A stretch of 64,000 bases of DNA from Lyngbya sp. HA4199-MV5 (GTDB lineage: Bacteria; Cyanobacteriota; Cyanobacteriia; Leptolyngbyales; Leptolyngbyaceae): NCBI GenBank assembly GCA_019359375.1, contig JAHHHL010000035.1, forward strand, positions 1 to 64,000. Reading direction: 5' to 3'. Each line of letters opens with the position of its first letter. Positions within the stretch are counted from its first letter, which is position 1. The translations under genes and the position numbers were made by a program. The notes below the pieces were generated by a model. That model saw only the letters and a program-made list of their open reading frames with translations. It was not told the origin of the DNA and did no database searches. Below, piece by piece: positions 10,552-62,384 of the stretch.

Positions 10552-11904
10552 ATGAATCGTTTAGCCCTTCTAGCACCACTGGGTCTGCTTCTGGTTGCTT
10601 GCCAGACGACTGACACCTCCGGAGCGGTATCCACCGCAGCACCCGCTTCATCTGCCAACCCAGTTCAATCCGGTGAGCCAGACAATGCTAAGGCAGTCCC
10701 AGCACCTGCACGCTTGATTGCAACGCAAGCTCTGTCGCCACAGCCAATCAAAATAACCCCTGCAAGCTTGCCAAAGCCTTACGCCAGCAGCAGTGCCGCA
10801 AAATCGCCTAATGTGATCCCGATTCCAGCCAACCCAACGCTTCGGGTGCCGACAGGTTTTGTGGTGAGCGTCTTTGCAGAAGGGTTGGATCGTCCCCGTT
10901 GGCTAGCGCTCACCCCCACAGGCGACGTGCTGGTGACGGAGACTCGTCAGAACCGCATCCAGCTTTTGCGTGATGCCAATCAAGATGGCGTAGCCGAGGT
11001 TCAAAAAACGTTTGCCACGTCGAAAAATGGCTTGAATATTCCGTTTGGGATGTCGTTTGGCAACGATGCGTTTTTCTTGGGCAATACGGCAGCGGTTTTG
11101 CGCTTTCCCTATCAAAAAGGACAGGAGCAACTAACGGGCACTGGTACCAAGATTACCGATCTACCGGGTGGAGGCTACAACCAGCACTGGACGAGAAATG
11201 TACTCGTTTCGCCCGATCGCACCAAACTTTACGTCTCGATCGGCTCTCAGTCCAACGTGGATGAAGAACCCCTACCGCGTGCGTCTGTGCAGGTGATGAA
11301 TCTGGATGGGAGCGATCGCCAAACCTTTGCCGCTGGTCTGCGGAATCCTGTGGGCTTGGCATTTCATCCCACCACTCGCGAACTGTATGCCACCGTCAAC
11401 GAGCGCGATGGACTGGGCGATGATCTGGTGCCAGATTATTTCACCCGCATTCAGGCAGGGCAGTTTTACGGCTGGCCTTACGCTTATATGACCCCCGATC
11501 GCCTCGATCCAAACCACAGCCAAAACGGGCGCAGCGTTCGTCCTGATTTAGCCGCTCAAACGCGCACCCCTGATGTCCTGTTTCAAGCCCACTCAGCCGC
11601 ATTGGGGGTGCAGTTCTACGCGGGTCAAACCTTTCCGACGAGGTATCGCAATGGGGCTTTTGTCGCCTTTCGGGGGTCATGGAACCGCGATCGAGGCACT
11701 GGCTACAAGGTCGTTTTCGTCCCATTTACAGCCGATGGGCGACCCCAGGACTACTACGAAGACTTTCTCACAGGCTTTCTAGTTAACCCATCCGGTCCGG
11801 ATACCTGGGGCAGACCCGTTGGGTTACTGACGCTTCCCGATGGCAGTCTGCTAGTAACCGAAGAGGCAAATGGGCGGATTTATCGAATTCAGTATCAGGG
11901 ATGA
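10552..11904 (+). CDS. PQQ-dependent sugar dehydrogenase-like lipoprotein, 450 aa
   Basis: A predicted periplasmic or membrane-anchored beta-propeller enzyme of the glucose/sorbosone dehydrogenase family, which oxidises sugars using pyrroloquinoline quinone. The N-terminus is a lipoprotein signal with lipobox LLVAC (Cys17). A linker rich in Ala, Pro and Ser runs to about residue 90. The propeller contains RPRWLALTPTGDVLVTE, VGLAFHPTTRELYATVNERDG and the C-terminal GLLTLPDGSLLVTEEANGRIYRI. Most cyanobacteria are not known to make PQQ, so the natural cofactor or reaction is uncertain. The gene stands alone, about 250 bp after pilQ. Confidence 0.85.
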   Translation: MNRLALLAPLGLLLVACQTTDTSGAVSTAAPASSANPVQSGEPDNAKAVPAPARLIATQALSPQPIKITPASLPKPYASSSAAKSPNVIPIPANPTLRVPTGFVVSVFAEGLDRPRWLALTPTGDVLVTETRQNRIQLLRDANQDGVAEVQKTFATSKNGLNIPFGMSFGNDAFFLGNTAAVLRFPYQKGQEQLTGTGTKITDLPGGGYNQHWTRNVLVSPDRTKLYVSIGSQSNVDEEPLPRASVQVMNLDGSDRQTFAAGLRNPVGLAFHPTTRELYATVNERDGLGDDLVPDYFTRIQAGQFYGWPYAYMTPDRLDPNHSQNGRSVRPDLAAQTRTPDVLFQAHSAALGVQFYAGQTFPTRYRNGAFVAFRGSWNRDRGTGYKVVFVPFTADGRPQDYYEDFLTGFLVNPSGPDTWGRPVGLLTLPDGSLLVTEEANGRIYRIQYQG

Positions 11905-12003
11905 AGGCTAAAGGATGAAGGATGAAGGCTAAAAGTTTGGAGCAGTCATCAGTGATCAGTGAAACAGTCACCAGTGATTCAGTGATTCAGTCATCAGTGA
12001 ACC
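11905..12003. repeat. Short tandem repeats GATGAAGGCTAAA and CAGTGATTCAGT types
   Basis: Directly after the dehydrogenase stop there are three degenerate GGATGAAGGCTAAA units. These are followed by CAGTGATCAGTGAAACAGTCACCAGTGATTCAGTG-like units. They are typical of short tandemly repeated repetitive sequences in cyanobacterial spacers. Confidence 0.6.
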
Positions 12004-12013
12004 ATGAGCATTG

Positions 12014-12291
12014 AGAGGATGTCTGAGAAGTATGAAAGCCTCTTCGCTGCGTTGCTATCTCGCCCTGAACTAGAAGTAATGCCTTCGGCAACGCCATGCG
12101 AACGGGCTAACAGAGGCAAATCCACTCAAGTGGACTCAGTGCTGTTGCCATTGCTTGAGTCCGTTTCAACGGACTTCCTGCCATCAGCCCGTTCGCGTCG
12201 CGTTTCCGTAGCTTTAGCTTCCCGCAGGGTAGGAAATACTTCAGTTCAGGGTAGGTGAGTGCTATCAACGATTGCTTTTCAGACATCCTCT
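12014..12291. mobile_element. MITE-like element, 278 bp, 17-bp inverted ends
   Basis: The left end AGAGGATGTCTGAGAAG (12014-12030) and the reverse complement of the right end, AGAGGATGTCTGAAAAG (12275-12291), match at 16 of 17 positions. A 7-bp direct repeat GAGCATT lies just outside at 12006-12012 and 12294-12300, as expected of a target duplication, with one to two bases between it and the arms. Inside are nested perfect palindromes: GCGAACGGGCT/AGCCCGTTCGC (12098-12108 and 12186-12196), TCCACT-CA-AGTGGA and AGTCCGTT-TC-AACGGACT. No transposase is encoded. The ends resemble IS5-type termini, but the family assignment is inference. Confidence 0.7.
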
Positions 12292-12300
12292 GAGAGCATT

Positions 12301-12487
12301 AGCATCACTGAAAGCTGAAAACCGATGGACTGGCAACTGATGACTGACAACTGATTCTTGGAGACTGATCACTAACTCCTGACTCCTGACTTCGATCGAA
12401 CGGTCACGGTCAGCTTTTTAGCCTTTAGCCTTTAGCCTTTAGCCTTCTGTCCCCCTCCCCCTTCTGCCTCCTGCCCTCTGCCTTTTT
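12301..12487. repeat. Heptanucleotide TTTAGCC x4 and CTCTGCC tract
   Basis: Four exact TTTAGCC heptamers run from 12417 to 12444, preceded by degenerate ACTGATCACT/CTGACTC units and followed by CCCCCTCCCCCTTCTGCC-like low complexity up to the stop of the SH3 lipoprotein gene. The same heptamer appears in reverse orientation (GGCTAAA) at 4340-4360. With the preceding repeats, the whole 11905-12487 spacer is repetitive and holds no credible gene. Confidence 0.7.
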
Positions 12488-13255
12488 CTACTTCACCTGC
12501 ACCGAAAACGCGTAGCGATACCCCCTAAAATTCGACTCTAGTTGAAGGGTATAGTCACCCGTTTGTTCAAGCGGCTCACTCCAACTCGATCGCTTGTCGT
12601 CTTTCTCATGCCCCAGCAAAATCGTGCCATCGGGAGCAATGATCATGGGAAAGGGACCTCGATCGTGGGTGATGGTCAGGGTTTGCCCTTTGCTAGCAGG
12701 GAAAACATAGCGATGGGTGCCCGTACCGACAAAGCGATCGGCAATTTGCTGCGTGGAGGCATCGGCACTCAGGCTCAAGCGTTCTGCTTTCTGGTTGCAG
12801 CTATGAGTAGTTTGCGACTTAGAAATCCAGCCCTTCAGCGGTGATTTAATGCGAAGCCATCCGTCCTGGTCAGCGGCTACAGTGACCAGGGTGTTGTTTT
12901 TCAGTTGACCGACGACATTCTCCCCTTCGGTAGTGGGTGCCGAACGGACGTTGAGCGGTGGATTGGGGTCGTTTACCAGAGCCATCGTGACAAGGCACGT
13001 TTTAGCCGTCTGGTTTTCTGAAGAGGGTTTGCCAGGAGCGGTTTCGGTCGTTTGCTGCTGGGTTGTCGGAGTGGGGGATGCGGCGGACGAAGGGCTAGAA
13101 GCTGGTTGGCTGGCGGGTGACGCGATCGGCGCTGTGCTGGGTGATGTTCCCGATGGTTCGGTCATGGAAGACTGGGAACACGCCACTGTTAGTCCGGCAA
13201 GCGCTGCCAACGAAAGGGCACCTGCCACAGCCAGCACAGAAGCATTCGGTTTCAT
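12488..13255 (-). CDS. SH3-domain lipoprotein, 255 aa
   Basis: A predicted envelope lipoprotein. I take ATG 13255 as the start because the product then opens with a classic signal and lipobox (GLTVAC, Cys26), with AGGAA upstream; a longer frame reaching 13333 adds an Arg-rich leader that would spoil the signal. A Pro/Ser/Thr linker runs to about residue 82. A bacterial SH3 domain follows (PPLNVRSAPTTEGENVVGQL to GWISKSQT), which in other proteins binds cell-wall peptides. The C-terminal 100 residues form a beta-rich module (ADRFVGTGTHRYVFPASKGQ, TGDYTLQLES) resembling pre-peptidase C-terminal or inhibitor-type domains. Confidence 0.8.
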   Translation of the reverse strand: MKPNASVLAVAGALSLAALAGLTVACSQSSMTEPSGTSPSTAPIASPASQPASSPSSAASPTPTTQQQTTETAPGKPSSENQTAKTCLVTMALVNDPNPPLNVRSAPTTEGENVVGQLKNNTLVTVAADQDGWLRIKSPLKGWISKSQTTHSCNQKAERLSLSADASTQQIADRFVGTGTHRYVFPASKGQTLTITHDRGPFPMIIAPDGTILLGHEKDDKRSSWSEPLEQTGDYTLQLESNFRGYRYAFSVQVK

Positions 13256-13472
13256 AAAGGTAGTTCCTGGAAAAGCTCTCGATCGATAGCTACACGGTGC
13301 TAAAAGGCGGCGACGGATAAAGCCAAACCTCATTGTGCAGCTTTTCTAAGTGCAACAGTCGCATGGTTGATTGAGACTGTCACAATTTTGACTGAGATTG
13401 CACCATCACTACCAGCGATCGCCGGGGGATGCAATCTATATTGATCATAGTCGTCATCAGAGGAACCAGGGA

Positions 13473-28222: not shown

Positions 28223-29449
28223 TTATGGCTTAATGGTGCTAACGTCCCAAATCCGGGCTGTTCTGTCCGCAGAACCCGTGATCACAAGATTGCCATCAGG
28301 ACTAAAAGCGGCATCGCCAACCTTATCCTTGTGCCCCTTAAGTTCGATAAGCAGGTTGCCAGCGGTATCCCAAATCCGCGCTGTTTTGTCAGCAGAGGCT
28401 GTCACAATACGATCGCCCTGGGGACTAAAACGCGCCTGGTACACGACATCCTTATGCCCTTTTAGTTCGACAAGCTGGTTTCCAGCCATGTCCCAAATCC
28501 GGGCTGTGTGGTCAGCCGATGCGGTCACAAGGCGATCGCTCTGAGGATTAAAATAAGCACTGTGCATGACTCGTGGTTCTTTGTAAGAAAGCAGCGGATG
28601 CTTGAGTTCAGCCAGCAGTTTGCCAGAAGTGTCCCAAACCCGAGCTACGTCCATTCCGGCTGTAGCAACCACAAGTTTACCGTCTGGGCTGAAATCAGCT
28701 TTGGTATGCATAATCCCACGTTGGAGACCCTTAAGCTCGGTAAGTAACTTACCTGAAGTATCCCAGATTCGTATTACACCATCACCAGAAGCCGTCACAA
28801 TGCGATCGCCGTTTGGGTTGAAGTTAGCTCTTAAAACCTGATTAGGTTCTCCTTGTAATTTGGAAAGCAATTTGCTGGAACTAGCCTCAAGGTGAGCCAT
28901 TTTGCTGGTAGAAATGTCGCTTTTGGGCTTAGGAGTCACCCTTAAAACCTTCCCTGGAGGTTCTTTGAGTTCGGTCAGCAAATGACCAGAAGTATCCCAA
29001 ATTTGAACACTCTTGCCGGAAGAAGCGGTAATAATGCGATCGCCCTTTGGGTTGAAATGAGCATCGTAAACAACGCCCTTACCGCCTTTGAGTTCAGCCA
29101 GTAATTGACCAGAAGTATTCCAAATTCGAGTGGACTTAGATTTCGTAACAACGCGATCGCCTTGAGGACTGAAATCGGCACCGATCGCCCAGTCAATACC
29201 TTCTTTAAACGAGGCTAACCGCTTACCCGATAGATTCCAAAGTCTAACCGTCTGATCCCTTGAGGTAGTGAGAACTTGGTCTCCCTTGTAGTTAAACTTA
29301 GTTCTGAACACGTTGTCGCTATGAGGTAGGACGACTGATTTTAGCGGCGGTTCGCTCTTGAATTGAAATGCAGTGATCATTGCGATAGCTACCAGCGTCA
29401 AGAATGTTCCTGCTAGAAGCCTCCACCGTCGATAATTTTTTCTTGCCAT
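28223..29449 (-). CDS. Membrane-anchored WD40-repeat protein, 408 aa
   Basis: A short basic N-terminus (MARKNYRRWR) and one hydrophobic helix at about residues 11-28 anchor a WD40 beta-propeller. Eight clear repeats end in RLWN, RIWN, QIWD, RIWD, RVWD or RIWD. A ninth unit between the third and fourth clear repeats (about residues 155-190, KVLRVTPKPKSDISTS to LLSKLQGE) has lost the Trp-Asp signature and seems degenerate. Such repeats scaffold protein complexes. No ATPase or kinase domain is fused, unlike many cyanobacterial WD40 proteins. Several repeats are very similar at DNA level, as expected from recent duplication. Confidence 0.88.
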   Translation of the reverse strand: MARKNYRRWRLLAGTFLTLVAIAMITAFQFKSEPPLKSVVLPHSDNVFRTKFNYKGDQVLTTSRDQTVRLWNLSGKRLASFKEGIDWAIGADFSPQGDRVVTKSKSTRIWNTSGQLLAELKGGKGVVYDAHFNPKGDRIITASSGKSVQIWDTSGHLLTELKEPPGKVLRVTPKPKSDISTSKMAHLEASSSKLLSKLQGEPNQVLRANFNPNGDRIVTASGDGVIRIWDTSGKLLTELKGLQRGIMHTKADFSPDGKLVVATAGMDVARVWDTSGKLLAELKHPLLSYKEPRVMHSAYFNPQSDRLVTASADHTARIWDMAGNQLVELKGHKDVVYQARFSPQGDRIVTASADKTARIWDTAGNLLIELKGHKDKVGDAAFSPDGNLVITGSADRTARIWDVSTIKP

Positions 29450-54727: not shown

Positions 54728-55594
54728 ATGAAGTTTTCTTTTCTCGTTTTGCTGCTCTTTGCTGGTGAACAGGTGCTACTGGATAGCGTTTTGCCCTCCA
54801 AGGCTTACGAACTCTCTTCTCCAAATCCATCTGTCATCACATCAGAAGGAGTCACGATCGATCGTCTTGCGTTGTCTCCCAAACCACCCGTGAACGATCG
54901 CGTCCTCATAGAACCCAAAACCGTCACCTTTACCCGTGGCAAAAAGGGACAAGATTATCCCGATTACAAAGAAGCCACTATCAAATATCCGCAGGTAGCC
55001 GGACTGACGGATCAAACTGTATTGCAAAACGTGCAAACAGCCGTCAGCCTCAAAAGCGTCATTGGGCAATCACTCAACGAGTTGCGAACCGAGTTTTTGG
55101 AAAGCTGGTGGCTGAGCGAAATTGACTACACGGTTAACTACAACCAGAACTCGCTGCTGGATCTCACGTTTACGATTAGCGGTGTGGGAGCCTATCCCAG
55201 TACCTATGAAAAGCATCGGCTGGTAAGCTTAAAAACGGGCAAAGCCCTCAGAGCAACGGATGTGTTTAAGAAGGAAGCTTTTGGCACGATCGCTGTGATG
55301 GTAGATAAAGCCATGCAAGCCGAAATGAAAGCGGCGATCGCAAGCGGGGATCAGGGTGGTGCCGATATCCGCGATCAACTCGCGAACAAACGCTTTCAAA
55401 TCAAAAATCTCAATGCTTTTTCGATTAGCGATCAGGGAGTCACGTTTCTTTACGACTTTGGCTTTCCCCATGTCATCAAAGCGCTGGAGCCATCTGGTCG
55501 GTACTTTTTTAGCTACGACCAGCTCAAGACCTGCATCAAACCAGATGGTGCGCTAGGTGTTTTTCTACCCACGGCGGCTGGTACGAGAGGCTAG
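54728..55594 (+). CDS. DUF3298/RsiV-like secreted protein, 288 aa
   Basis: The N-terminus MKFSFLVLLLFAGEQVLLDS with SKAYELSS is a signal peptide. The middle has a PdaC/DUF4163-like part (TIKYPQVAGLTDQTVLQNVQ, SWWLSEIDYTVNYNQNSLLD, LTFTISGVGAYPSTYEKHRL) and the end a DUF3298-like part (FSISDQGVTFLYDFGFPHVI, GRYFFSYDQLKTCIKPDGAL). These domains are found in secreted or membrane-attached proteins such as RsiV. The TAG stop codon (55592-55594) lies in the first four bases of the 131-bp mobile element, so the original C-terminus may have differed. It is alone after the CHAT gene. Confidence 0.78.
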   Translation: MKFSFLVLLLFAGEQVLLDSVLPSKAYELSSPNPSVITSEGVTIDRLALSPKPPVNDRVLIEPKTVTFTRGKKGQDYPDYKEATIKYPQVAGLTDQTVLQNVQTAVSLKSVIGQSLNELRTEFLESWWLSEIDYTVNYNQNSLLDLTFTISGVGAYPSTYEKHRLVSLKTGKALRATDVFKKEAFGTIAVMVDKAMQAEMKAAIASGDQGGADIRDQLANKRFQIKNLNAFSISDQGVTFLYDFGFPHVIKALEPSGRYFFSYDQLKTCIKPDGALGVFLPTAAGTRG

Positions 55595-55721
55595 GGCGTG
55601 TCATCAATTAGCTCCGAAACCTTGCAATATCAGCAGTGTCACGCCCGTCCCCACGCACCAGGCTAGGGGCTGGAACCCTTTCTGTAAGCAATGTGTAGTA
55701 TTAATTGATGACAGCCCCTAG
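55591..55721 (+). mobile_element. 131-bp CTAG-bounded MITE-like repeat, copy B
   Basis: Opens CTAGGGCGTGTCATCAATTA and closes with the imperfect complement TAATTGATGACAGCCCCTAG: about 18 of 20 pairs. It contains two internal hairpins: GGGCGTG with CACGCCC in the left half, and CTAGGGGCTG with CAGCCCCTAG in the right half. It differs from copy C at about nine positions. It provides the stop of the upstream gene and ends 56 bp before the H-NOX start. Confidence 0.82.
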
Positions 55722-62253: not shown

Positions 62254-62384
62254 CTAGGGCGTGTCATCAATTAGTCCCGAAACTTTGCAATATCAGCAGT
62301 GTCACGCCCGTCCCAACACACCAAGCTAGGGGCTGGAACCCTTGCTGCAAGCAATGTGTAGTATTAATTGACGACAGCCCCTAG
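62254..62384 (+). mobile_element. 131-bp CTAG-bounded MITE-like repeat, copy C
   Basis: Same length and orientation as copy B at 55591 and about 93 percent identical by eye. Left end CTAGGGCGTGTCATCAATTA, right end TAATTGACGACAGCCCCTAG. It is inserted in the pntA1/DUF2808 spacer about 290 bp before the DUF2808 gene. Flanks on either side of CTAG are unrelated between copies (ATTT and TCAC here). Confidence 0.82.

Follow-up and report, generated by a model that had tools for sequence, protein, structure and literature searches.

MITEs are normally seen as shrunken relatives of one parent transposon. The small non-coding repeats of cyanobacteria are said to include the small dispersed repeats (SDRs) of Elhai et al. 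2008 and the Nezha MITE of Zhou et al. 2008. REPINs are inverted pairs of palindromic units, according to the part of PMC3116915 used here. The element described below lies in the window, by which we mean the whole stretch of 64,000 nucleotides of Lyngbya sp. HA4199-MV5 DNA that was analysed. Its ends are of the IS5 type, and its interior resembles the bodies of elements that have ends of four types: B (IS5-type, the ends of the window element), E (TAGGGCGTGTTTTAAAAC), C (TTAACTSAGATCTTGCACC) and A (IS4-like).

Results

The genome amounts to 6.9 Mb in 95 contigs. A glucose/sorbosone-dehydrogenase-like gene (10552-11904, +) and an SH3-domain gene (12488-13333, -) border the 583-bp spacer that holds the element. 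The best named match of a neighbouring gene is in Stenomitos rutilans, at 91% identity in the best segment, and points to a probably Stenomitos-like cyanobacterium. The two border genes remain neighbours in 5 of the 12 ortholog loci compared, and the spacer measures 69-191 bp there, against 583 bp here. The spacer is itself a dispersed repeat, with a paralog in contig C95 (locus L004) of the same genome. Both window 11900-12420 and L004 contain this spacer repeat, which is rich in CAGTGATCAGTG and GATGAAGG units. The features are as follows, with window coordinates and strand.

11900-12011, no strand: left part of the dispersed spacer repeat (compared with L004, 11900-11977 is 87% and 11995-12020 is 96% alike)
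12012-12014, no strand: left copy of the 3-bp target duplication TGA, from flank comparison and the empty site L004
12015-12290, no strand: whole element, 276 bp, with IS5-type terminal inverted repeats
12015-12031, plus: left terminal inverted repeat GAGGATGTCTGAGAAGT
12032-12060, plus: left subterminal arm, similar to that of many elements that share the body and have B, A or E ends
12062-12107, plus: hairpin H1, its stem probably lengthened by 12077-12102
12118-12136, plus: hairpin H2 (TCCACT...AGTGGA)
12158-12175, minus: hairpin H3 (AGTCCGTT...AACGGACT), inverted counterpart of H2
12187-12251, minus: hairpin H4, inverted counterpart of H1, its stem probably lengthened by 12190-12236
12190-12236, plus: small dispersed repeat inside H4, with 87-91% alike stretches of 45-47 nt in genomes G023 and G032 (L011, L014, L026)
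12252-12273, plus: right subterminal arm, weakly like B-ended elements, best in G033
12274-12290, minus: right terminal inverted repeat, GAGGATGTCTGAAAAGC on the minus strand
12291-12293, no strand: right copy of the 3-bp target duplication TGA, from flank comparison
12294-12392, no strand: right part of the same spacer repeat, with the second GAGCATT at its start (12291-12392 is 79% like L004)

Borders and target site

A sequence-only reading of the window had proposed 17-bp inverted ends flanked by GAGCATT as a 7-bp direct repeat. The inverted ends are present, as 12014-12030 and 12275-12291 agree at 16 of 17 positions, and both carry the exact 13-mer AGAGGATGTCTGA, which matches nowhere else in the window at up to two mismatches. 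The GAGCATT pair is present as well, at 12006-12012 and 12294-12300. It brackets 12013-12293 on either side, which favors a 7-bp target duplication and an element that is not of the IS5 type. However, the empty site that had been suggested as a check was found in contig C95 (L004), and it carries GAGCATT twice where a single copy had been predicted. This paralogous spacer reads ...CATGAGCATTGAGAGCATTGGCATC... without the element and contains an uninterrupted GAGCATTGAGAGCATT. Because it runs through in this way, the GAGCATT pair is old target sequence, and because both copies were present before the insertion, the duplication consists of the TGA at 12012-12014 and 12291-12293, which leaves an element of 276 bp (12015-12290). 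TNA is also found on both sides in 13 of the 16 other B elements. The 7-bp duplication was discarded on the evidence of the empty site, and an element of another type with such a duplication is hardly tenable.

IS5-type ends and their transposases

A genome search for the ends, set beforehand as a test, found other elements with such ends: the end pattern AGAGGATGTCTGAGAAGT has 41 matches in the genome at up to three mismatches, and 6 when it is read backwards. Among 17 distinct B-type elements that measure 100-400 bp and have both ends, taken from all loci fetched by then, 11 have identical 3-bp flanks and 14 have TNA on both sides. At L059 and L060, the transposases adjoining such ends belong to the IS5 family (DUF4096, DDE_Tnp_1, NF033580). 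Loci fetched using L060 as the query yielded eight elements with paired ends 908-915 bp apart and an L060-related transposase. Identical TNA flanks are seen in seven of the eight, one lies in this genome (L210), and the ends of all eight are at least 2 of 16 positions off those of the window element. Flanks are unequal in two further IS5-family places, L204 (928 bp, TAA/TTA) and L211 (1011 bp, TTG/TTA; the same single place as L217). The nearest B-ended IS is L211, with 1-2 differences in 16 and a transposase frame that is split in two pieces. Window 12015-12030 differs from the ends of the paired IS5-family elements L194, L195, L197, L210 and L211 at 1-4 of 16 positions, as counted by eye. 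A 975-bp end pairing in L196, with 9 mismatches, was discounted as chance. The search for a transposase gene with the same ends, also proposed in the sequence-only reading, thus turned up IS5-family elements with TNA flanks and similar ends, at least 1 of 16 positions off.

The inverted repeats of the window element resemble IS5-family ends, and its target is a TNA with a 3-bp duplication (TGA/TGA). With similar ends, TNA flanks and an empty site all found, the idea of an IS5-like MITE has held up, and by its ends and target the window element is classed as a MITE of the IS5 type.

B ends in this genome also enclose a GGATGAAACGGAT-type hairpin in elements of about 140 bp (L035, L044, L048, L053, L063) and, at L054, a CCCCCCTTAAGAAGGGGGG hairpin. 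The window contains two other sets of repeats. A 131-bp family is represented by 55591-55721 and 62254-62384, the copies being 93% alike, with CTAGGGCGTGTCATCAATTA at one border and TAATTGATGACAGCCCCTAG, or nearly so, at the other. It differs in sequence from the 12015-12290 element, in support of the sequence-only reading, which had called the two unrelated; its TAGGGCGTG end is similar to the E-type ends that the body has in relatives. Three 64-nt direct repeats with 123-bp spacing lie at 28244-28553, perhaps within a gene, which is a guess.

Structure of the four-hairpin body

The nested palindromes that had been pointed out in the interior are real, and so is the 11-bp perfect pair GCGAACGGGCT (12098-12108) and AGCCCGTTCGC (12186-12196) with its 77-base loop. 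The 56-nt arms 12083-12138 and 12156-12211 are 71% complementary. The strand 12006-12300 folds with -64.8 kcal/mol, compared to -39.3 (sd 3.9) for shuffled sequences (z -6.6), and none of 200 shuffles was as good. The body consists of a two-hairpin unit, H1 (GCCC...GGGC) and H2 (AGTCC...GGACT), and then a similar unit in inverted orientation.

One long hairpin and four local hairpins both fit the data. On eight bodies, RNAalifold returned the long hairpin together with some of the inner stems. Of 102 bodies, 77 could be parsed, and in these both H1 and H4 fold; many of the 25 that could not be parsed are extended. The fold mark of -2 kcal/mol is one that shuffled copies reach in 65% of cases (means -9.6 versus -3.1). 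In the A-ended parsed bodies, H1 and H4 both fold in 33 of 33 and are counterparts of each other in 0 of 33. Where the ends are B, C or E, the pairing of H1 with H4 is the stronger one, and 12 of 23 B-ended bodies have exact counterparts.

A 56-nt unit model, R1, was made from 25 half-units. In the R1 alignment 92.5% of cells pair, and the covariation score is 0.326, against at most 0.075 with slid partners; none of 500 shuffles reached it. Further pair types are no more numerous in R1 than in shuffles, 402 of 500 of which attain the same count. The covariation indicates that the palindromes are kept, and selection or correction by template switching would both explain this. Template switching can keep palindromes perfect without selection.

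The covariation of two local hairpins, and the folding of both H1 and H4 in all parsed A-ended bodies though they are not copies of each other, would also be expected if the hairpins had a task in the host at the level of RNA or DNA, such as termination, and were kept for that, with the transposon ends as carriers. There is no Rfam match at E values up to 1, however, and the nine placeable A copies all lie between reading frames, with none inside and no orientation pattern (4 >>, 2 ><, 2 <>, 1 <<). Palindromes that template switching could keep perfect need no such function, and we regard a host function as quite unlikely. Any role of the hairpins is putative.

Copies of the body and their ends

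A profile search with R1 in the own genome located 47 places with 92 half-unit hits in all, usually a plus-strand hit and then a minus-strand one. Across the phylum, at least 29 of the 146 genomes sampled have R1 hits, and seven relatives have from at least 33 to at least 150 per genome; the copy numbers in both sets are lower bounds. Of these seven relatives, G011 is the richest in half-units among the matches listed. For end typing, 107 loci were entered, 5 were without a pair and 102 were typed. The 40 loci from relatives came from the top of the listed R1 matches and are not a random sample, and two places were entered twice (L023 is L246, and L010 is L264, with identical tree rows).

The 47 places in the own genome have A ends on both sides in 37 cases (35 under other limits), A on one side in 6, B in 1, C in 2 (one of them one-sided) and untyped ends in 1. 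The window copy is the only one of the 47 with B ends. In relatives the body is found in B ends (mostly G011 and G033), in C ends (e.g. G001 and G009) and in E ends (G009, G011 and G025). More distant genomes have the body near a further end type, GTAGGGGTTTAGCA..GCTCATTGGTGTCAACTTAA (L111, L113, L125 and L122; G115, G100, G141 and G178), which in some loci is one-sided or partial only. Partners for the C and E ends were sought by end patterns only, and none is put forward. The E ends resemble the B ends and the two may be one lineage; because of this resemblance, changes between B and E may be drift. The firm contrast is that between A and B, which differ in transposase family and in duplication length.

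Type A ends (CTGRTTGACTGACAAA) occur 132 times at up to two mismatches, compared to once in the control. Of 46 A-ended elements measured, a set that takes in the IS L182 and elements whose interior is different, 27 show a 9-bp duplication with no more than one mismatch (20 perfect), whilst the offset control gave 0 of 46. Some of the other A-ended elements fit a duplication of 8 or 10 bp. L182 is a 1287-bp element with A ends and a 389-aa transposase related to the IS4 family, which matches NF033591 with an E value of 1.9e-39 and 135.7 bits, below the cut-off of 152. No duplication was found at L182 itself. The size of 1287 bp, the CT-starting ends and the 9-bp duplication fit the IS10 row in Table 1, the portion of PMC2266710 relied on here. 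A ends in the own genome also surround a different hairpin, built on GTAGGTTGGGT (L183-L187, L191, L192).

Is the body a REPIN?

The body, like a REPIN, is an inverted pair of palindromic units, and it is high in copy number and widespread. It could thus be a mobile REPIN-like unit that is moved by a Y1 (RAYT/IS200-type) transposase, the DDE transposon ends being secondary. RAYT matches above the cut-off are present in 11 of 16 genomes searched, and at one G009 locus (L028/L359) two half-units flank an IS200-like frame. Yet of 30 loci fetched around RAYT-family matches in the 16 genomes, one weak IS200-like case (L359, 27 bits against a cut-off of 80) has a half-unit, so that an association with a RAYT gene was not found in these loci. 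A sequence-only model picked up no unit near the 11 Y1 matches of the own genome, and G011, with at least 150 half-unit matches, is without a RAYT match at E 0.001. Y1 enzymes are also not known to make 9-bp duplications. A RAYT/REPIN origin was looked for and found no support, and we hold it to be very unlikely. At L028 (719-1359, G009), a 168-aa IS200-like frame lies between inverted half-units; an IS200 may have inserted in a body, or it may be otherwise, and this is a single case.

Evidence for and against exchange of ends

The left arm of the window element without its end (12033-12066) is alike above the shuffled maximum in 35 of 52 B-ended, 41 of 94 A-ended, 12 of 14 E-ended and 2 of 22 C-ended arms. 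The same comparison for the right arm gave 8 of 52, 0 of 94, 0 of 14 and 2 of 22, respectively. These figures bear on the suggestion, made in the sequence-only reading, that an IS5-like element had captured other palindromes, in which case the likeness to IS4-ended elements would be due to independent capture of the same common hairpins. Such capture is in keeping with IS5-type ends at TNA, with the mixing of ends and hairpins in the own genome (B ends with other hairpins, A ends with a different one), and with the matches of 12077-12102 and 12190-12236 to repeats elsewhere. Repeated independent capture does not, however, predict a likeness of A-, B- and E-ended elements that takes in the left subterminal arm as well as the hairpins and reaches nearly to the ends, although this counterpoint holds for the left arm alone, the right arm showing little. 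The suggestion survives in part: the outer-hairpin extensions (12077-12102 and 12190-12236) look captured, but the four-hairpin body occurs in at least 29 of 146 genomes and, in this genome, mostly in other ends. We consider independent capture of the hairpins unlikely.

A tree of 99 bodies was calculated from 124 columns, a small number for that many rows, with three bodies longer than 200 nt dropped and the window body entered as 12061-12244. The labels A, B, C and E need 9 changes on this tree, where the minimum possible is 3. The B label undergoes 12 gains or losses, 8 of which are forced by well-supported branches. A supported clade (96/86) of six G009 bodies contains three with E, two with C and one with B ends, the B member (L012) being typed on weak ends. 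End labels are nevertheless strongly clustered (19 changes for five labels, compared to a shuffled mean of 47.8), and exchange is thus at best rare relative to copying. The row of the window element has a branch 0.45 long and its placement is unsure. The end types and the body lineages do not fully coincide.

Inspection of the window body part by part revealed different nearest relatives. For the compact part 12103-12190, the best likeness is to bodies from other genera with E or B ends (L010 with 74 of 88 positions, L012 and L015 with 70 of 88). The stretch 12061-12102 is nearest to the C-ended own-genus copy L008 (41 of 42 bases), and 12190-12236 to the C-ended own-genus copies L135 (44 of 47), L023 and L007 (43 of 47 each). 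In G032, L270 is the same place as L026, and the stretch like 12190-12236 lies there in the same gene neighbourhood. A gain of small dispersed repeats in the stems of H1 and H4 is more probable than a swap of the whole interior. A derivation of the whole window interior from C-ended copies was dropped, as the comparison ties only the arm extensions to C. Because the likeness to C is confined to these extensions, there is no direct proof of an exchange between B and C ends.

Discussion

The reading that we prefer for the ends, the TNA duplication, the empty site, the body shared across ends and duplication lengths, and the covarying hairpins is that the window element is a non-autonomous IS5-type insertion carrying a MITE body that has changed transposase vehicles. 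We give this a probability of roughly 0.7. Its two GAGGATGTCTGA ends stand at a TNA (here TGA) within the older spacer repeat into which it inserted, and an IS5-family transposase probably mobilised it in trans. The cargo is a conserved body made of one two-hairpin unit and its inverted repetition. The presence of this body in IS4-type ends, with a duplication of about 9 bp, and in further end types suggests changes of vehicle over its history, and the ends may have been replaced by recombination or template switching between bodies. The outer stems of the window copy would later have been lengthened by small dispersed repeats common to the C-ended copies of its own genus.

A wider reading is possible but far from secure. 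The four-hairpin body, inverted two by two, may be an old selfish entity that persists by swapping its ends, and that has ridden IS5-type, IS4-type and at least two other transposases; the hairpins would be its lasting identity and the ends replaceable. If this is true, a body that stays stable while its ends change breaks the rule of one MITE, one transposase, and explains how small elements survive past the loss of their helper. Sequenced genomes, in which one body occurs with several kinds of ends and with duplications of various lengths, would then offer a natural series for the study of end exchange. In the literature searched, coverage of which was thin, we found no description of end exchange in bacterial MITEs or of such a body, and the body or parts of it may already be described.

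Several known systems share features with the element. Like the cyanobacterial SDRs and the Nezha MITE, it is small, non-coding and cyanobacterial, a likeness in general description. The body shares with the REPIN/RAYT system the inverted pair of palindromic units (in the part of PMC3116915 used here), whereas it has two hairpins per unit and is surrounded by DDE-type ends and duplications. The A-ended MITEs carry the same kind of body and are comparable to the IS4 family, IS10 subgroup, and its derived MITEs, the fit of the A ends to that subgroup being by size, ends and MITE duplications alone. The window copy differs from these in having other ends; CT ends and a 9-bp duplication are absent from it and present in sister bodies. 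With the IS5-family MITEs associated with an NF033580-type transposase it shares similar inverted ends, TNA flanks, small size and an interior in which no gene was found. It differs from them in that its interior is a four-hairpin body common to elements with other ends.
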